Source: a virus
Virus record (IMG/VR): IMGVR_UViG_3300021088_000029
Location: 1-29,472 of that record
Strand: one strand, 5' to 3'
Length of the DNA: 29,472 bases
The notes beneath the pieces are model-generated. The model did not search any database, was not told the DNA's origin, and was given only the letters and a program-made list of their open reading frames with translations. The position numbers were made by a program, and so were the translations under genes. Below, piece by piece: positions 7,822-29,472 of the stretch. Positions within the stretch are counted from its first letter, which is position 1. The number at the start of each line of letters is the position of its first letter.

Positions 7822-10800
7822 ATGGCACTTAATTCGCGGCCAGCGGCCCCCAGTAATTTTGCAGACATCATTATAGCTGCACCCCCTGCGACCTATACGG
7901 TAAACAATTACAGTCCCGTTGATGCTGCACTTGAAGTGCAAACAACTACTGGAATGGTTTTGTTTCCTAGGATGACTACAGCCCAAAGAGATTTATTAAA
8001 TGTAGTAAATGGTTCGCAGATTTATAATAGTACTACCAATACAATGCAGGTTTATACCAATGGTGCTTGGGCATCCATAAGTACAGGCGGCGCGGGAGGC
8101 AATGTAGTTGGTACTGGTCCAACAACAGTGGGGCATTTAGCTGTATTTAATAATGCTCTTGGCACTGGCATCCAGGATGGCGGCATTGTTCCGCCTGTTA
8201 TTACAGGAACCCCTGGGGATTTCATGGTATTTAATGGCAGCGGCAATCCAAGTGATTCTGGCCTTCACTTAACTATAGATCCAGTTACAAGTAATTTCTT
8301 AATTGTCCCAAGCGCTTCAACTGGCGCTGAACCTAATAACATCGCCCTAGGTTATGGCGCATTAGAGGCCATAGATACTGGTACTTTTAATATAGGAATT
8401 GGTGTTAATGCCGGAGCTGGCACAACCGATGGAAATGAAAATATATTTATAGGGCATGCAGCTGGCACCTCTAATATTACGGGCTCTGGTATTACCTGCA
8501 TAGGCTCTGCATCCGTTGTTGATGATGGCCTTACTAATCCTGTCATAATTGGAACCGATGCGAGCTCCACAGGCAGCCATTCTGTGGCCATTGGTGATAC
8601 AGCTTTTGCAGCTGGTGGTAGTGGTATCGCTATTGGTCAGCTATCTCAAGCTAACACCAATTCCAGTACTGGCGCGATAGCAATTGGACCAGGAGCTAGT
8701 GCTGCTGATGCCAGCTGTATTGCTATAGGAAATGAGGCAACAACGACAGCAGGAGTGTCTGTTTTTGGTGTAAGTATAGCCATAGGAAATAACGCCACTG
8801 TTGCTGGAGATGGTTCAATAGCTATGGGTAATTTTGCAAATGTAACTGCTGATAAGGCTGTTGCAATTGGCGGTAGCGCAGCTGCAACTGTTGCAAATAC
8901 TATGATATTAGGGGGGGTATCGGGCACTTCTGATGCATTAAGCATTGGTATAGGCACGTCCACGCCTGCCGCGGTTTTGGATGTAACCAGTGCAAACAGC
9001 GGATTATTAGTTCCTCGCGTCGCCAATACAGGAGCGGTAACATCTCCTGTTAACGGCATGATTGTTTATGATAATAGCGCTACAGCATTTAAATTTCGTC
9101 AAGCTGGAGCTTGGGTAGCATTAGGCTCAGGTTCTGGAAATGTGGTTGGCCCTGGCACATCAGTAGTTGGCGATATAGCAACGTATAACAACACCACCGG
9201 CACATTAATTAAGGACAGCGGTCTTTTAGCTACCGTAAATAGTGTGACTGGAGATTTTAGTTTATCTGCTACCGCAAGCGGTTCTAGTACCTATGATATT
9301 TCCATAGGTCATTTAGCTGCTGCATCAGCCGGAACTGGCATTGCTATAGGTAATAGCGCCACTACATCTGGAGGTAAGGGAATCGCTATAGGTGATACCG
9401 CTGCCGCAGCTGGCAGTCAAGCTATTGCTATGGGATACAATTCTACCGCATCTTTTGGTGGCTCTATTGCTATAGGTGATACTGCCGGTGCTACTGCCGC
9501 TAATGCCGTTGCTATAGGTATTAATGCAAGCGCAACTGTTGCAAGCACTATGATACTGGGTGGAACAGGAGCAAATGCTGTAAGTATCGGTGTAGGTACA
9601 TCCACTCCCGCTGCATCAGCTCTTTTAGATTTAACTAGCACTACAAAGGCTCTTTTAGTTCCTCGCACCACAACCGCCTCTATAGTGACTCCCGCTAACG
9701 GTATGATTATTTATGATACAGGAACTACTGCAATAATGGTTTATCAAAATACTGCATGGGTTGCAGTAGGGGGAGGCAATGTAACAGGTCCTGGAACATC
9801 GGTTGTGGGTGACATAGCTACTTACAATAATACAACCGGGACATTAATTAAAGATAGCGGCGCATTACTTGCTGTAAATAGCGTGGCTGGAAATTTAAGT
9901 CTCTCCGCTCCCGCTAGTGGTTCCTCTACTAATAACATAAATATAGGTAATTCAACCAGCGCTACAGGCCCCAACGCTATAGCAATAGGCTTTAATACTA
10001 ATGCAAATATTACTAGTGGTTTAGCTATTGGCACCTCGACTAATGCAACCCATCAAAACGCTGTAGCAATAGGACCTAGCTCCTTCGCATCAGGGGATTT
10101 TAGTACGGCATTAGGATATAACGCACATGCAAGCGCAACTAATGCAACAGCATTGGGAGAAAGCGCAAGTGCAACTGTTGCAAATACTTTAATCTTAGGG
10201 GGTACTGGCGCTGATGCTGTGAGCGTTGGTATAGGCACCTCTACCCCGGCTGCGGTATTAGATGTAACTGCTACTACTACTGGTATTTTAGTTCCTCGCA
10301 CTACAACTGCTTCAGTAACATCGCCGGTAAATGGAATGGTTATTTACGATACTGGCACCACTTCATTTCAGTTTCGTCAAAATGGCGCATGGGTAGCTCT
10401 AAGCGCAGGCTCTGGGAATGTAACCGGTCCTGGCACCTCAATAGCGGGCGATATTGCTACTTATAATAATACTACTGGTACATTGATTAAGGATAGCGGT
10501 CTTCTGCTTACCGTAAATGCCACAAACGGAAATTTCACCCTCTCCACTACTGCAAGCGGCACCTCTACGTATGCTATTAATATTGGAAATGGTAATACTG
10601 CAACATCAAATGAATCTATTGCTATAGGTAATACGGCATCTGCTACCGGCGGTAATTGCACTGCTATTGGTTCCAATAGTACAGCAGGGGCATCAGCACT
10701 TGCAGTAGGTCAAGGCGCTAACGCATCAGGCACCCAGGGTGTAGCTATAGGGCCGGCTGCTACGGCCAGCCAAACCAATACAATTGCTATAGGTAATAGC

Positions 10801-11268
10801 TCGGCAACCGCTCTCGCTGCTACCGCAGTGGGCGCTTCTGCTGGCGCTAGCGGAAGCACTTCTACATGCATAGGATTCAACACTCACGCAACTCAAACCA
10901 ATTCTACAGCTATAGGAGCTGGCGCGACGGCCAGTGTTGCTAATTCCGTAGTATTGGGAGCCACTGGAACGCAAGTTTATTTTACAGGCGGTATATTGGT
11001 TGAGCGTACCGCAACTGCTGTAACTTATAGTGCTCTTGTTACTGATTACATCATTGCATGTACCGCCAGTACCTTGACTATACATTTACCTACCGCAGCA
11101 GCTGGAAACTCAGGTCAAACCTACATAATAAAAGATGAAAGCGGGGTTGGCGGAAGCACTGTTAACGTAACAGGAGGTGGCAATATTGATGGTGCAGCTA
11201 CAGCGGCTTTAGGGGCTTATGGAATTGTTAGGGTTTATAGCAATGGCACTCAATGGTTTACTTGGTAG
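7822..11268 (+). CDS. Large modular tail fibre with YadA-head-like repeats
   Basis: An 1148-residue protein rich in Ala, Gly, Ser, Thr and Asn with AGGAG before its ATG. Residues about 1-90 form a particle-proximal module shared with the previous gene. Four blocks of YadA/Hep_Hag head-type repeats (units such as AIAIG, SIAIG and AIAMG about every 14-16 residues) lie near 174-368, 490-590, 707-795 and 919-1045. The later blocks are separated by linkers of the type GIGTSTPAAVLDVT, LVPRTTT, NGMVIYDTGT, GDIATYNNTTGTLIKDSG, with LVPR at 396, 612 and 823. The C-terminal about 90 residues (ILVERTATA to YSNGTQWFTW) form a different beta domain, probably the tip. Such proteins make long trimeric fibres that bind the host surface. 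No C-terminal S74-type self-cleaving chaperone was seen. Confidence 0.75.
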   Translation: MALNSRPAAPSNFADIIIAAPPATYTVNNYSPVDAALEVQTTTGMVLFPRMTTAQRDLLNVVNGSQIYNSTTNTMQVYTNGAWASISTGGAGGNVVGTGPTTVGHLAVFNNALGTGIQDGGIVPPVITGTPGDFMVFNGSGNPSDSGLHLTIDPVTSNFLIVPSASTGAEPNNIALGYGALEAIDTGTFNIGIGVNAGAGTTDGNENIFIGHAAGTSNITGSGITCIGSASVVDDGLTNPVIIGTDASSTGSHSVAIGDTAFAAGGSGIAIGQLSQANTNSSTGAIAIGPGASAADASCIAIGNEATTTAGVSVFGVSIAIGNNATVAGDGSIAMGNFANVTADKAVAIGGSAAATVANTMILGGVSGTSDALSIGIGTSTPAAVLDVTSANSGLLVPRVANTGAVTSPVNGMIVYDNSATAFKFRQAGAWVALGSGSGNVVGPGTSVVGDIATYNNTTGTLIKDSGLLATVNSVTGDFSLSATASGSSTYDISIGHLAAASAGTGIAIGNSATTSGGKGIAIGDTAAAAGSQAIAMGYNSTASFGGSIAIGDTAGATAANAVAIGINASATVASTMILGGTGANAVSIGVGTSTPAASALLDLTSTTKALLVPRTTTASIVTPANGMIIYDTGTTAIMVYQNTAWVAVGGGNVTGPGTSVVGDIATYNNTTGTLIKDSGALLAVNSVAGNLSLSAPASGSSTNNINIGNSTSATGPNAIAIGFNTNANITSGLAIGTSTNATHQNAVAIGPSSFASGDFSTALGYNAHASATNATALGESASATVANTLILGGTGADAVSVGIGTSTPAAVLDVTATTTGILVPRTTTASVTSPVNGMVIYDTGTTSFQFRQNGAWVALSAGSGNVTGPGTSIAGDIATYNNTTGTLIKDSGLLLTVNATNGNFTLSTTASGTSTYAINIGNGNTATSNESIAIGNTASATGGNCTAIGSNSTAGASALAVGQGANASGTQGVAIGPAATASQTNTIAIGNSSATALAATAVGASAGASGSTSTCIGFNTHATQTNSTAIGAGATASVANSVVLGATGTQVYFTGGILVERTATAVTYSALVTDYIIACTASTLTIHLPTAAAGNSGQTYIIKDESGVGGSTVNVTGGGNIDGAATAALGAYGIVRVYSNGTQWFTW
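9007..10995 (+). repeat. Three long coding repeat units in the fibre gene
   Basis: Three units of about 210-236 codons begin at LVPR motifs (nt 9007, 9655, 10288) and end near 10995. Each contains an NGM(I/V)(I/V)YD strand, a GDIATYNNTTGTLIKDSG linker and a block of AIAIG-type head repeats. Protein identity in the linker is very high, but the DNA differs at many third codon positions, so the duplication is old and the protein sequence has been held constant. A more diverged fourth copy lies at the N-terminus (LFPR at residues 47-50). Confidence 0.75.
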
Positions 11269-24124: not shown

Positions 24125-24499
24125 ATGCCCAGAAAATATAATAAAACAGAAGAAAAAGAACAGGCGTTTTTCTTTAGATGGTTAAGCTATGCCCATCCTG
24201 AGCTAAGGAAAGTAGTTTACGCTATACCTAACGGAGGCTCCCGTAATATCTTTGAGGCTCATAACATGAAGCTTGCGGGGGTAACGGCGGGAGTGCCTGA
24301 TGTAAGTATTGACATTGCTTCTAAAGATGGTAAACATCACGGCTTAAGGCTTGAGTTTAAGGTAAAAGGCAGAAAATCTAGTCCTATTCAAAAGGACATT
24401 CAGGACGCCCTACGACAACAAAACTATCGAGTTGAAATCGTTTATAGCTGGAATGAGGCGCAACAAGTTTTTCTTGAGCATTGTGGTTTATCTAGCTGA
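24125..24499 (+). CDS. VRR-NUC family nuclease
   Basis: A 124-residue stand-alone VRR-NUC domain, a PD-(D/E)XK nuclease type. Visible motifs are an N-terminal helix with Glu9/Glu12, IPNGG (34-38), GVPD with the catalytic Asp59, and LRLEFK with Glu77 and Lys79, followed by Q/K-rich helices ending in W-EA. Length is normal for single-domain phage members. Such enzymes cut DNA junctions or flaps and may help resolve replication or packaging intermediates; cellular relatives (FAN1) act in repair. It starts 2 bases after the fibre stop with a weak ribosome site, so it is probably translated by coupling. It is the last clearly functional gene of the rightward block. Confidence 0.85.
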   Translation: MPRKYNKTEEKEQAFFFRWLSYAHPELRKVVYAIPNGGSRNIFEAHNMKLAGVTAGVPDVSIDIASKDGKHHGLRLEFKVKGRKSSPIQKDIQDALRQQNYRVEIVYSWNEAQQVFLEHCGLSS

Positions 24500-25111: not shown

Positions 25112-25393
25112 ATGCACCATATTTTCAAGGACATATTACTTCAACCTCCCTATAATAAGACATCTGAGGCTGATAAAGCGTTGGCTGTACGCAGGACCTA
25201 TGAACAAAAACAGATTAAAGATTTAGAGAAAAAATGCCAGGCATTGTCAGATGCATATGAGGAGGACCTGGGGGATAGCAGTAGGTATACAGCCGCGTTA
25301 GAGAGGAGAATAGAGGTGGCTGATGAAATGCTAGAGAAAGCTCTAACGCAAGAATTCAAGAGGCAGCTTAACATTATCTTGAATGTAACTTAA
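25112..25393 (+). CDS. Small coiled-coil protein of unknown function
   Basis: A 93-residue protein, charged and almost wholly helical after residue 15 (KDLEKKCQALSDAYEEDL, RRIEVADEMLEKALTQEF). The ribosome site is weak (CGGA about 8 bases before the ATG). A candidate promoter lies at 25055-25083. It is the last rightward gene, and its TAA shares the tetramer TTAA with the stop of the convergent permease gene. No family is recognised. The charged coiled-coil composition makes it a plausible real protein rather than a chance ORF, but support is modest. Confidence 0.4.
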   Translation: MHHIFKDILLQPPYNKTSEADKALAVRRTYEQKQIKDLEKKCQALSDAYEEDLGDSSRYTAALERRIEVADEMLEKALTQEFKRQLNIILNVT

Positions 25394-26598
25394 CTACAGG
25401 ATTTTAGTTTTCGTGCTGCATACAGAAAGGGTATGCTTGAAACTGCCACGATAATAAAGAAAAGGGGCCAACTGATATTGGTATAGCCCTTAAAATAGCC
25501 ACTCCCATAAGCCAATAATGTGCGCATAAATGATGCAAATGAGCATACTACAGCAATTTTAGTGATTATATATTGACCTTTACATAAACTGGCTAAAAAA
25601 GTCATTAGTGCCGTATGAGCCATTCCACATACAATAGCTTGAATAACTACCGTAATAGTAAAGATAACTTTGTTTTGGCTGCTTGTTGCGAAATACAACA
25701 ACACCAAGGGAGCAGCTAACTGTAAAATACCACACCCAATCATGCCTCGCATAATTCCTGTTTTAGTAAGCCATTTGCCGGCAATAGCACTCGCCACCAG
25801 CATGGCTACAGTACCCACAGTTCTTACGGTAAAGGCTAATTCAGATTTGCTAAATCCTAAATCCATAAACATTACTGGACCCCAGTATTGGGTAACAGAA
25901 TCACTAATTTTATAAAACAATATAAATAATGCAAGCCACTTCAATGAGTGGCTCTGGTTTAAATCCTTTAATGCATGTTGTAAAGTTTTAACAAAATCTC
26001 GTAGGGGCTGTTTATCTGGGTGATTAGAGATAGCGTTTTGGGTAGTATCACCCAAGCATAACCAACCTATAAAGCTAGGTATTAATAAATATAGCATTAG
26101 TAGATTAATTCGTTGCCAGGAGAAGTTATGAGCAGAACAATATAAAGACCCAGCGCCTGCTAATAATAAACCCGTATAAAATCCCATGTTAGTAAAAGCC
26201 ATAGCCATCGGCAAACGTTCCTTGGTGAAGTTCCCCGCACGGTAAGCTGCTGATATAGTATCTATCATAGCCATCCCCATGCATATGAGAGTTGCTAATA
26301 AGCAGGTTAATAGATAATCCTTGTGTGGCGATGTATAGGGCATAAACCCCATCATGATAAATAAAACAGCAAGTAAAAATAACGCCCACGCCTTACGATG
26401 ACCAAAGCATCTATATAGAACTGGGGCCACATTATGATCGAAATACGGCGCCCATAATATTTTTAAAGAATAGGGAATTGTTATTAACGCTAGAATGCTG
26501 ATTTGCTTAGCAGAACCATGCTCAGAATAGATTAATAACGGTAAGCTGCTTGCTAAAAAAATAAACACGGAGCCTGAAGAAAAAGCTATTCCAAACAA
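25390..26598 (-). CDS. AmpG-like MFS permease
   Basis: A 402-residue integral membrane protein with about 12 hydrophobic segments. The N-terminal FSSG, the PYSLKILWAPYFD block, FGHRKAW and MAMIDTISAAYR match AmpG-family permeases, which import anhydro-muropeptides for cell-wall recycling; AmpG-like paralogues with unknown substrates are frequent in Legionella, Coxiella and Rickettsia. The only standard start in reach is TTG 26598, without a ribosome site and truncating the first membrane helix. Upstream in frame, ATA at 26623-26625 lies 6 bases after AGGAG, overlaps the lipoprotein's TAA as ATAA, and would add nine residues (I-NINFAFFS) that complete the helix. The gene ends a phage recombination operon, an odd place for a permease. 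The family is fairly sure; the substrate and expression are not. Confidence 0.75.
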   Translation of the reverse strand: MFGIAFSSGSVFIFLASSLPLLIYSEHGSAKQISILALITIPYSLKILWAPYFDHNVAPVLYRCFGHRKAWALFLLAVLFIMMGFMPYTSPHKDYLLTCLLATLICMGMAMIDTISAAYRAGNFTKERLPMAMAFTNMGFYTGLLLAGAGSLYCSAHNFSWQRINLLMLYLLIPSFIGWLCLGDTTQNAISNHPDKQPLRDFVKTLQHALKDLNQSHSLKWLALFILFYKISDSVTQYWGPVMFMDLGFSKSELAFTVRTVGTVAMLVASAIAGKWLTKTGIMRGMIGCGILQLAAPLVLLYFATSSQNKVIFTITVVIQAIVCGMAHTALMTFLASLCKGQYIITKIAVVCSFASFMRTLLAYGSGYFKGYTNISWPLFFIIVAVSSIPFLYAARKLKSCS

Positions 26599-26621
26599 AG
26601 AAAAGAAAGCAAAATTTATAT

Positions 26622-26765
26622 TTATAAAAGTCTCCTATTCCCATTCCCTTTATCTAGAACCATGGACTTCATAAGCTCAAATTCCGGGTCTATATCTATC
26701 TCATTAGCCTTCATAATGCAACCATTAAGCGACATAATCGCTAGGATTACTAGTATATTTTTCAT
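26622..26765 (-). CDS. Small lipoprotein (47 residues)
   Basis: A 47-residue protein with a short signal peptide: MKNILVILAIMSLNGC, a Lys-containing n-region, a hydrophobic core and the lipobox LNGC with Cys16 as the lipidated residue. The mature part is about 31 residues, acidic then basic (ANEIDIDPEFELMKSM, ending NGNRRLL). GGGAG lies 5 bases before the ATG, which follows the upstream stop codon by 2 bases. Its last codons carry the AGGAG that serves the permease gene. Asp/Asn after Cys was not seen (Ile follows), so outer-membrane sorting is expected in a gammaproteobacterium. A superinfection-exclusion lipoprotein or an outer-membrane spanin (Rz1 type) are possibilities; it lacks the Pro-rich character of Rz1. 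Confidence 0.6.
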   Translation of the reverse strand: MKNILVILAIMSLNGCIMKANEIDIDPEFELMKSMVLDKGNGNRRLL

Positions 26766-26767
26766 TT

Positions 26768-27160
26768 TTACTCCCATTCCAGAAGGCCAAAACAAGGACC
26801 ATCTCTAAAGAAAGTTTTATTTGCCCTTGTACATCTATATAGGCATGCCGATACCGATTGTTTTTTGCTTTTATATTTTGGCCCCATTAGTTTTAATATT
26901 TTTTTCACACGAAGAGGGCGAGCAGCTTGCGCAAGTATGTCCTTAACCATTCCCTCATACCCTCCTTCTATATGGATCCTTTTTTGACAAGGTATGCGAG
27001 TAATAGGAAAGTCCTTCTTAACTTGCTGTTCTTTTTGCCAAATTTTAGCCTCTAAAGCTAGCCTAAGAGCGCTCTCTGTGTATCTGTCAATATTTATAAA
27101 AGCATCTTGCTCTACTACTGGCTTATTAAACAAACTCTTTAAAAAACTAGTAATACTCAT
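26768..27160 (-). CDS. HARE-HTH-like DNA-binding protein
   Basis: A 130-residue protein. Residues 1-60 are helical and charged. The C-terminal about 65 residues (GMVKDILAQAARPLRVKKILKLMG, then SVSACLYRCTRANKTFFRDG, ending FGLLEWE) look like the winged-helix HARE-HTH domain (HB1, ASXL, restriction endonuclease HTH), which ends in a similar F-L-EW. These domains are thought to read or bind DNA in chromatin factors, sigma-like proteins and restriction systems. The ATG overlaps the recT stop by one base (TAATG), so the two are translated together. It may regulate transcription or guide recombination. The fold call is by pattern only. Confidence 0.5.
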   Translation of the reverse strand: MSITSFLKSLFNKPVVEQDAFINIDRYTESALRLALEAKIWQKEQQVKKDFPITRIPCQKRIHIEGGYEGMVKDILAQAARPLRVKKILKLMGPKYKSKKQSVSACLYRCTRANKTFFRDGPCFGLLEWE

Positions 27161-27972
27161 TATTCACCCCCTATCTGTTCATTGGTTTCAATAGCCCCAA
27201 TTATAGGCGCTTCCTTGGGCTCCTTCTCCCGCTCTTGCATCTTTGCTTCCATCATATTAACCCACCCTTGTGCTGCTTCTTCTGTAAGCTGAGCTAATGT
27301 TTTTACCCGAGCTTTGCGTAAGATTGCTTCCTCTGTTGCAAATGGATCGCTCGCGAAAGTAATCAAATGTGCCAATTTTTCCAGGGTCTCCACCGTTATA
27401 GGAACGACCTCATTCACAGTATGTTCTATTATATTACCATCATTAATAGGCTTGCGCACAATAGCGGGGCTATCTTGAGCCTCTTCAGCTGATATTAAGC
27501 CTTTTAATAAATGAGGGAAAGCATCTCTTAAGGCAAACCCGCGAGCACGCATCTGTAGCATACGCTTAGGATAGGTGGTCCATGGTCCTTGTTTACCCCA
27601 TAGGTTTGCCTTCTGTGCATCTTCCTTGCTGAATTTAGCAACAACATCTGCCTTATCCTTTCGCTTAACAATGCACACCGCAACCCATATATCTTCGTCA
27701 AAAGTTTCTATTATATCCATGCATTCTACAGCCCTCTCACATAATGCCTTCATTAGGTCACCCCAGACAGCGGGCTTGCCATTAATAACCGCAATGTTCT
27801 GTAATGCTTGTAGGGGCTGTATACCAAGCTCCCCCCCATGCGCCACAGCCAGCAATACATCTATAGGCCTCCCTTTAAAGCTTCCTGGACAAAAGCTTGA
27901 ATTAGCTATTAGGTTGGCTGAGCGCTGGGCATGCTCGAAGCTCGAAAAATCTAAAATCTGTATACTACTCAT
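27160..27972 (-). CDS. recT: RecT-family single-strand annealing protein
   Basis: A 270-residue recombinase that anneals single DNA strands during phage recombination. Hallmarks of the RecT family are visible: FKGRPIDVLLAVAHGGELGIQPLQALQNIAVINGKPAVWGD (about 33-73), an A-VVAKFSKEDAQKANLWGK region, and WTTYPKRMLQMRARGFALRDAFPHLLKG (about 130-158). The C-terminus is charged and variable, as in many relatives. AGGAG about 5 bases before the ATG fixes the start. It pairs with the YqaJ-type exonuclease encoded upstream in the same operon, the usual phage exonuclease/annealing partnership, analogous to RecE/RecT or Exo/Beta. Length is typical. Confidence 0.9.
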   Translation of the reverse strand: MSSIQILDFSSFEHAQRSANLIANSSFCPGSFKGRPIDVLLAVAHGGELGIQPLQALQNIAVINGKPAVWGDLMKALCERAVECMDIIETFDEDIWVAVCIVKRKDKADVVAKFSKEDAQKANLWGKQGPWTTYPKRMLQMRARGFALRDAFPHLLKGLISAEEAQDSPAIVRKPINDGNIIEHTVNEVVPITVETLEKLAHLITFASDPFATEEAILRKARVKTLAQLTEEAAQGWVNMMEAKMQEREKEPKEAPIIGAIETNEQIGGE

Positions 27973-27985
27973 CTTTACTCCTAAT

Positions 27986-28207
27986 TTATATTACCAATCT
28001 ATTATCAATCTGCCGTCTATTCTCCTCTAATGTCATTCTTGCTTGTATTTGCTGGTTAGTAACAACTTGAAATTGCGCTATTAATGGGCGAGCCGCTTGC
28101 CTTCCTATGAGCAAATTTCCCCGTATTCTTTGTTGTCTTTGATGAGGCATTTCAAGAACCTCTTGTATATCCCTTCTTTCCGGTGGTGTTATATTAATGT
28201 CTGACAT
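27986..28207 (-). CDS. Small polar protein of unknown function
   Basis: A 73-residue hydrophilic protein rich in Gln and Arg (HQRQQRIRGN, NQQIQARMTLEENRRQ), probably helical. AAAGGAA lies before the ATG, and it sits 13 bases before recT. There are no membrane segments, Cys clusters or known motifs. Its position between regulator and recT genes, in a tight operon with good ribosome sites, supports it being real. A small early-phase accessory protein is the most that can be said. Confidence 0.45.
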   Translation of the reverse strand: MSDINITPPERRDIQEVLEMPHQRQQRIRGNLLIGRQAARPLIAQFQVVTNQQIQARMTLEENRRQIDNRLVI

Positions 28208-28220
28208 GTTTGTTCCTTTA

Positions 28221-28406
28221 CTATTTTAAAAACCAAGCCATAATTGAGGCCCCAAGCACAAAAAACGATAAGCATAAGCGCATAACAATAACATCTAATT
28301 GGTCTATAATTTTTTCTTCCACTAACATATCCATTACCTTGCTAACCACAAAAGACCCTCCCAGACAGCACACGAATATAAATACTATTGTTGTAATTTT
28401 TGTCAT
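28221..28406 (-). CDS. Two-helix small membrane protein
   Basis: A 61-residue protein with two hydrophobic segments, about 4-23 (ITTIVFIFVCCLGGSFVVS) and 41-60 (VIVMRLCLSFFVLGASIMAW), joined by an acidic loop (MLVEEKIIDQLD). Its ATG overlaps the regulator stop as ATGA. Two short helices with short ends resemble class II holin topology or superinfection-exclusion proteins, but its place in the recombination operon rather than by lysis genes makes holin unlikely. An ORF on the opposite strand covers the same bases but lacks operon context. Confidence 0.5.
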   Translation of the reverse strand: MTKITTIVFIFVCCLGGSFVVSKVMDMLVEEKIIDQLDVIVMRLCLSFFVLGASIMAWFLK

Positions 28407-28732
28407 GCTTGCTCTACTTTTAATTGCTTAAGTTTTTCTTCTAAGGTTTTAATCTCAGCCTCTGTTCTTTTTAAATCTATATGGTGTGTAACTACCTCCC
28501 TAACCCGAACCTTTTGGTCATCCGTCATAATGTCAATCATGTGAGGCCCCCAAGCCATTCCAATTCTATGTAATTTTTGCCATGCAATTAGAGTATGCCT
28601 AGGCGGTCCGGGAATGGTTTCAGGTTCCTTCATCCATCTACCAACGCTGCGAGGATGAACACCCATAAGCTTGGCTAATTGTTTTTGCGTAAGGCCAAGC
28701 TCTTGCATGATTTGTAAAATATCTATCTTCAT
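28403..28732 (-). CDS. HTH transcriptional regulator (XRE/Cro type)
   Basis: A 109-residue DNA-binding protein. Residues about 5-38 form a helix-turn-helix: MQELGLTQKQLAKLMGVHPRSVGRWMKEP, with the Q-A-L-GV turn and a recognition helix PRSVGRWM. The rest is helical and ends in a coiled coil (KTLEEKLKQLKVEQ), which suggests dimer formation. It overlaps the exonuclease stop (ATGA) and the next gene (ATGA), so it is co-expressed with the early operon. It may repress its own or the opposing operon. The specific operator is unknown. Confidence 0.75.
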   Translation of the reverse strand: MKIDILQIMQELGLTQKQLAKLMGVHPRSVGRWMKEPETIPGPPRHTLIAWQKLHRIGMAWGPHMIDIMTDDQKVRVREVVTHHIDLKRTEAEIKTLEEKLKQLKVEQA

Positions 28733-29472
28733 TCCTTACTCACTTTAAAACTTAACTGTACGTACTCTTTGGCTTTTACAGTATATTCTTTAGTGGTAAC
28801 CTGTTTTCTAACGAAGTAGTTACCATTGCTTAACTTAGCCACACTGGCATTGCCCATGTCAGCTAGTATTTTATTCTCTAGACCTTCTTTAATTTTTTGA
28901 TACTCTCTGATTTGCTCTTTAGCCCCATGGATTACTTCACTAATCTGAATGCAGTCATCAGGCAGCTCTACAACCTCATCTTGCACCTTATCATATTGAC
29001 GTTTAATGCATTCTTTAAAACGAGGATGCACAAAGTTACGGTCAGGCGGAATCTTCTTAAGAACATGCTCTTCCCAAAAATGCTTTGCTTTATTAAAAAT
29101 GAGCTCATCCATTTCATAATCGCGTTCAAAGTTATATATCCTAAACTCATTACCGCCAAATAAGACAGCCACATCCCAAGCAGGATAGTCCAGAACCAGC
29201 ATGTAGTGGGCTATTTGATAATAATAATGCATGGGTATATCGGAGCTGGTACTAGGACCACCGTCGCCCCACAGATGTTTAGAGTTCATGTTGACGGTTT
29301 TTATCTCTAGGCCTTTGCGTTCACCCTTAATTAATCTATCGGGATGAGCTAATAGAAATGGATAAGGCTGGTAATCAAGTATAGCGCTATTGCCTGGATT
29401 AATTAACTCTTTTCCAGTCACTTGAGAATAGTGTTGTGCTATAGGCTCTTCTAATAGATTACCCCATATGAC
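28729..29472 (-). CDS. YqaJ-type viral exonuclease (partial, 5' end outside window)
   Basis: The frame stays open to the window edge, so the gene starts beyond 29472; a GTG at 29421 is only an internal possibility. The edge-proximal residues VIWGNLLEEP form the usual first helix with its Glu. Counting from the GTG, HPDRLI gives catalytic Asp28 and LEIKT gives Glu39 and Lys41, the PD-(D/E)XK core of lambda-exonuclease/YqaJ enzymes, followed by HYYYQIAHYM with the family's Q-x-x-x-Y helix. A Lys/Glu-rich C-terminal helix and small tail follow. It resects double-stranded DNA to give single strands for the RecT protein encoded downstream. The family assignment is secure; total length is unknown. 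Confidence 0.85.
   Translation of the reverse strand, partial: VIWGNLLEEPIAQHYSQVTGKELINPGNSAILDYQPYPFLLAHPDRLIKGERKGLEIKTVNMNSKHLWGDGGPSTSSDIPMHYYYQIAHYMLVLDYPAWDVAVLFGGNEFRIYNFERDYEMDELIFNKAKHFWEEHVLKKIPPDRNFVHPRFKECIKRQYDKVQDEVVELPDDCIQISEVIHGAKEQIREYQKIKEGLENKILADMGNASVAKLSNGNYFVRKQVTTKEYTVKAKEYVQLSFKVSKE

Follow-up and report, generated by a model that had tools for sequence, protein, structure and literature searches.

The recombination operon and its last gene

The window, by which is meant the whole stretch of DNA that was analysed, is a virus record of 29,472 bases and contains a leftward operon on the minus strand. The operon begins with a RecE/YqaJ-like exonuclease gene (28729..29472; Pfam YqaJ, 7.2e-10; phrog_434, 3.8e-45), which is cut at the window end and whose frame is unbroken across the joined ends of a closed twin contig described below. 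The exonuclease gene is followed by a gene for a 109-aa HTH protein (28403..28732; Pfam HTH_3, 9.3e-08), two small open reading frames of 61 aa (28221..28406, hydrophobic by eye) and 73 aa (27986..28207), a recT-like gene for a single-strand annealing protein (27160..27972; Pfam RecT, 2.1e-07; phrog_561, 1.7e-38), an open reading frame of 130 aa (26768..27160) with no match in Pfam or PHROG, an open reading frame for a 47-aa putative lipoprotein (26622..26765) and, in last position, the gene for an AmpG-like MFS permease (26625..25390). A convergent gene of 93 aa on the plus strand (25112..25393) overlaps the permease stop with its own stop. The first-pass annotation had the permease following recT; the two genes do share an operon, which the permease ends, but the 130-aa and putative lipoprotein genes lie between them. 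No siderophore or TonB gene was recognised near the permease, and Rfam gave no match. Near the end of the right arm, the plus strand also encodes a VRR-NUC nuclease-like protein (24125-24499; PF08774, 2e-06; phrog_824, 1.3e-35). Elsewhere on the plus strand, a 1148-aa repeat protein (7822-11268) contains 10 YadA-head repeat stretches (PF05658, 3.6e-29) and is a candidate trimeric-adhesin-like tail fibre.

The permease frame is open for 414 codons with no internal stops, whereas the plus-strand reading of 25390-26625 contains 46, which places the gene proposed for this interval on the minus strand. A chance open reading frame is ruled out by the Pfam, NCBIfam and PDB family matches given below. 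The frame comprises 411 codons when read from an ATA codon at position 26625 and 402 when read from TTG 26598, the first of its ATG, GTG or TTG codons; the first ATG, at 26355, falls within the third hydrophobic segment. A Shine-Dalgarno-like AGGAG (26632..26636, minus strand) precedes the ATA codon in the sequence ...aataggagactttt-ATA, and the site aataggagactttt has a calculated pairing energy with the 16S tail of -7.3 kcal/mol, as compared with +1.9 for TTG 26598 and a median of -5.6 over 30 other phage genes. Translation can begin at an ATA codon, though poorly. Because a strong Shine-Dalgarno site accompanies ATA and none accompanies TTG 26598, the ATA codon is preferred and is probably the start of the permease, with possible help from coupling to the lipoprotein gene. 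Initiation at TTG 26598 is possible, but would proceed without a ribosome site.

The first-pass annotation had described the permease as coupled to a lipoprotein. The genes indeed overlap by four bases (26622..26625, minus strand), such that the ATA start of the permease and the TAA stop of the upstream gene share the sequence ATAA; the lipoprotein itself is best called putative. Its product has a signal-like start and a lipobox-like LNGC in which N occupies position -2, a residue outside the usual lipobox pattern at that position. The product has no match in PHROG, and its similarity to Pfam MxiM is weak (0.0025, below the cut-off). The ATAA sequence looks like the common ATGA overlap with one base altered, and a relative that would show the change from ATGA to ATAA was not found. 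Inspection by eye revealed no slippery site through which a frameshift could fuse the permease with the lipoprotein.

With respect to expression, a scan for sigma-70-type promoters gave 15 promoter-like sites in the region against 15.8 expected by chance, and a scan for simple terminators gave no terminator-like site just behind the permease. The permease ends an operon rather than forming a strict moron with its own promoter and terminator, and the simplest reading is that it is expressed from the message of the recombination operon.

Residence in a phage genome and rarity among phages

When 2.9 million viral contigs were searched with the permease as query, one other copy of the gene came up, on a contig of 53,411 bases, here called the twin. 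The twin and the window agree without mismatch over a segment of 10,052 bases in which the permease lies, so that the frame, which the first-pass annotation had considered might be broken in relatives, is unbroken in the only further copy detected. Against the left half of the window, the twin shows four mismatches in 14,882 bases, located at 1753, 1764, 1767 and 10044, three of them within 15 bases. Beyond the region covered by the window, the twin carries genes for a terminase, a portal protein, an SSB and a replication protein, and its ends form a 98-base direct repeat. Upon joining of the ends, the genome would form a circle of 53,313 bases that contains the permease.

The first-pass annotation had also raised the concern that the gene might be host DNA at the edge of a prophage. 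As the twin closes into one circle containing the permease, with phage genes on both sides of it, a prophage edge is ruled out. The broader explanation, that the locus is host DNA or part of a chimeric contig, would account for the four AmpG matches in the phage collection described below, but it has to contend with the closed twin and with the agreement of two contigs that have different ends, and we judge it extremely improbable. With a codon-use score of 0.129, the permease falls inside the span of 0.001 to 0.157 seen for 36 other phage genes, which were called by ATG, GTG or TTG starts and whose want of ATA starts thus proves nothing. This codon use, together with the stop overlap with the 93-aa gene, argues for long residence in the phage. 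We are highly confident that the permease gene belongs to the AmpG family of the MFS and resides in a phage genome.

Full-length inner-membrane importers are rarely carried by phages. A rarity of AmpG permeases in phages, which had been proposed from the sequence, was borne out in each set of records searched. Among 50,697 phage records there are four AmpG matches, all of which are in bacterial DNA. In the Mcat17 record, the stretch that holds the AmpG gene has no phage genes annotated, and the frames around it were judged by eye to be housekeeping; two MD-2021a records, one of which was inspected, have AmpG among ordinary chromosomal genes; and EC22.5-2 is an unverified 3,683-base contig carrying E. 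coli AmpG. Relatives of the phage were gathered through the terminase (17 besides the twin) and the capsid (8, plus 49 more), for a total of 74. Pfam MFS_1 was found in none of 23 records in one set and in one of 50 in the other, the one being the twin itself, such that the 72 other relatives contain no match. Of these 72, 56 are shorter than 48 kb and 16 are at 48 kb or longer; the 16 longer records likewise contain no MFS gene. The remaining two relatives were scanned whole with the AmpG profile, without a match.

Searches centred on the neighbouring genes gave the same result. Among the 80 recT relatives kept of 563, none of the 79 non-twin loci has an AmpG-like frame within 5 kb on either side, where that much sequence is available, and the exonuclease scan returned the twin only. 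A viral-contig scan with canonical AmpG motifs yielded a single incomplete relative, located where a contig of 4,290 bases ends. Pattern scans of this kind detect near relatives only, which makes rarity a lower-grade statement. The searches made turned up no diverged homologue of this phage gene, and a literature search combining AmpG with phage and auxiliary-gene terms, over titles and abstract openings, returned no report of AmpG in a phage. As to whether the permease and lipoprotein occur as a pair in other phages, which the first-pass annotation had suggested examining, the permease recurs in the twin only in the viral-contig scan, and the putative lipoprotein matches nothing in phages at E values up to 10. 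The permease is therefore a bacterial-type gene that resides in a closed phage genome and is absent from 72 relatives: a rare cargo gene and, so far, an accessory gene of this phage alone. One related record of 58 kb is possibly a phage-plasmid. It has two recT-like genes (L035 and L038) on opposite strands, which are 46 and 47% identical to that of the window, and a ParA-like ATPase, named by eye, lies upstream of one of them.

Family assignment and conserved residues of the permease

The permease matches Pfam MFS_1 at 6.8e-23 (81.6 bits against a cut-off of 33.4), and its best NCBIfam family is TIGR00901, the 'AmpG family muropeptide MFS transporter' (1.7e-65, 221 bits), with an alignment that covers positions 9-411 of the 417 in the profile. 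The best chains in a phmmer search of the PDB are AmpG structures, 8zgz (2e-20) and 9c3f (3.8e-20). Similar to E. coli AmpG, to which these chains belong, the permease aligns over nearly its full length within a common fold family; it does not have the C-terminal extra helices of the E. coli protein (411 versus 491 residues). The RhtX/FptX siderophore transporters (TIGR02718) represent a related MFS branch, but the score of the permease against that family is 46.7 bits, compared with a cut-off of 356. Residues 72-386 of the 402-residue form also match phrog_2034 (2.9e-15), a phage/prophage family of unknown function, although this match is much weaker than that to TIGR00901. Identity to the AmpG-like matches in the plasmid collection ranges from 21 to 27%.

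The score of 221 bits falls short of the curated TIGR00901 cut-off of 350 bits. Control proteins from Azospirillum (506 bits), E. coli (496), Methylobacterium (482) and Legionella (380) all pass this cut-off, whereas AmpG of Acinetobacter baumannii, at 193 bits, is likewise far below it and also scores below the permease. The N-terminal residues of this Acinetobacter control are those of the A. baumannii AmpG cloned in PMC5154545, as judged by eye from the primer in an excerpt of that report. The same excerpt states that A. baumannii ampG restores the ampicillin resistance of a P. aeruginosa ampG deletion (MIC 1024 versus 32). Since A. baumannii AmpG works at 193 bits, a score under the cut-off does not by itself exclude AmpG function or muropeptide import.

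For a comparison of individual residues, 16 AmpG-like proteins were chosen from 30 plasmid and four phage records with matches, a sample rather than a full AmpG tree. The sample includes the Moraxella gene of the Mcat17 flank and omits the EC22.5-2 contig as a duplicate, and several of its proteins, whose starts were set mechanically, have overlong N termini. In the 411-residue numbering, the permease keeps W58, P60, D63, G75, W80, A119, D122, G148 and W170, and thus the W-x-P-x-x-D and GHRK-x-W scaffold motifs and the aspartate D122 of TM4 are common to the permease and AmpG. Altogether, 25 columns are kept of the 41 in which at least 10 of the 11 proteobacterial comparators agree. Among the polar residues lost are Q85 (to L), Q121 (to I), D126 (to A), R150 (to Y) and D/E329 (to Q). 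The D126 column, in TM4, is acidic in all 16 comparators, including cyanobacterial and Bacteroides MFS proteins that adjoin TonB receptors, and the Q121 column is Q in 14 of the 16. As a consequence of these substitutions, the permease departs from the TM4 motif [ST]QD-x(3)-[DE], as read from the comparators here. In A. baumannii AmpG, by contrast, this motif is present as ATQDIATDA. Residues G29 and A129 of P. aeruginosa AmpG, which the excerpt of PMC5154545 describes as sensitive, correspond by eye to G18 and A119, both kept in the permease.

The amino-acid make-up of the permease is odd. In a tree with the comparators, which answers in part a suggestion of the first-pass annotation to place the gene among bacterial AmpG paralogues, the permease has the longest end branch of the 17 (3.55 changes per column), a branch too long to place. 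That 411 codons have stayed open despite such a branch points to constraint through most of the history of the gene, which need not extend to its recent past. Hydropathy analysis shows 10 hydrophobic segments over a simple threshold; TM5 and TM7 are weaker and are assumed from the alignment. A single-sequence AlphaFold model, made without an alignment, is poor (pLDDT 48). We take the permease to be a protein in which the AmpG scaffold has been kept and the core has been altered; a link of the lost polar residues to substrate or to proton coupling is our inference.

Possible functions and host

In many Gram-negatives, beta-lactamase induction is signalled through cell-wall recycling, and the first-pass annotation had considered, among other roles, that the permease might act on this pathway. 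The reading that we prefer, to which we give a probability of about 0.4 from the sequence, is that the permease is an acquired inner-membrane importer with an altered substrate that is weakly translated and useful to the infected cell. A tailed phage would have taken up a bacterial gene for an AmpG-family transporter, and the acquired gene would have become the last of the leftward recombination operon, adjoining the convergent right arm. The permease would be read from the operon message, with inefficient initiation at ATA that is coupled to the lipoprotein gene's end. This would yield a 12-helix inner-membrane MFS protein that has kept the AmpG scaffold and lost polar residues of the transport core; because of this loss, it would most likely import a periplasmic solute other, or broader, than the classic anhydromuropeptide. 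Such an accessory importer would benefit the infected cell. A more specific and speculative version of the same idea is that the phage carries an AmpG-family importer put to a new use, whose translation begins at AUA and whose gene overlaps that of a very small envelope lipoprotein. While infection proceeds, the importer would take up or intercept signals in the periplasm, derived from the cell wall or otherwise; no report of such a transporter acting in the infection phase was found.

The permease could alternatively be a working anhydromuropeptide importer like AmpG, returning wall fragments made by phage or host to the cytoplasm and thereby feeding recycling or stopping signalling or leakage. 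The family scores, which favour TIGR00901 by far, the scaffold residues and the match at the two sensitive positions of P. aeruginosa AmpG all fit such an importer, but Q121, D126, R150 and D/E329 are lost and no adjoining peptidoglycan-recycling gene was recognised with Pfam or PHROG. We consider this explanation doubtful, and the loss of polar core residues leaves muropeptides, the substrate first proposed, unsupported. Effects on beta-lactamase signalling, the lysis state or phage exclusion, proposed alongside, likewise gained no support. Unlikely in turn is that the permease is a decaying passenger, its start decayed to ATA and its core residues lost, the protein doing nothing. The ATA codon, the want of a usual start with a comparable ribosome site near the beginning of the gene, the lost residues and the odd make-up would all follow from decay; on the other hand, 411 codons are free of stops and frameshifts, the gene is identical in a twin that differs elsewhere from the window, and the phage genome is compact, with overlapping stops.

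The overlap of the two genes, the want of relatives for the putative lipoprotein and the eroded transport core are also compatible with an envelope exclusion or protection pair, in which the lipoprotein would mask a surface or block entry and the permease-derived protein would jam DNA entry or an inner-membrane receptor. This arrangement seems less probable still, as the genes belong to a recombination operon and do not accompany a repressor or lysogeny module, PADLOC gives no match for either protein, the lipobox is imperfect, and the lipoprotein may be unrelated. If the preferred reading of an importer with altered substrate is correct, a phage AmpG-type transporter with an altered polar core would be a natural experiment on the residues that set substrate and coupling, and a case of infection changing envelope uptake. 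If the gene is merely a decaying passenger, it would be a footnote only.

Several searches bear on the host and donor. A pattern scan of genome contigs found no relative of the permease, and the replication and outer-membrane proteins have no useful plasmid relatives. A search of genome contigs with the capsid alignment gave only two, both from one MAG labelled Actinomycetota, and these were not taken as host evidence. The named phages closest in capsid have hosts that include Roseobacter, Pelagibacter and Caulobacter, which hints at an alphaproteobacterial host, although this is only a guess. The abstract of PMC9790009 describes Rhizobiales and Rhodobacterales as without AmpG, and that of PMC11980594 gives Caulobacter one AmpG. 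The intracellular host for which nutrient import had been imagined is unsupported by anything found here.

The twin contains further genes of interest, all on its minus strand. A 251-aa outer-membrane beta-barrel-like protein (L004:8309-9064; PF13505, 7.3e-05, below the cut-off) has no plasmid relative, and a MarR-like winged-helix regulator is encoded at L005:7316-7780 (PF13463, 2.2e-06). At 41559-41984 of the twin contig (L005:760-1185), outside the window, a 141-aa protein is encoded whose first half consists of an RNA polymerase alpha C-terminal domain (PF03118, 5.4e-20). Only the twin has this protein among 35 related records searched; in the phage collection 16 records match the domain, and of the 15 listed, those with an annotation are bacterial rpoA. 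It is possible that the 141-aa protein is a mimic that redirects host transcription, which would perhaps be more surprising than the permease.
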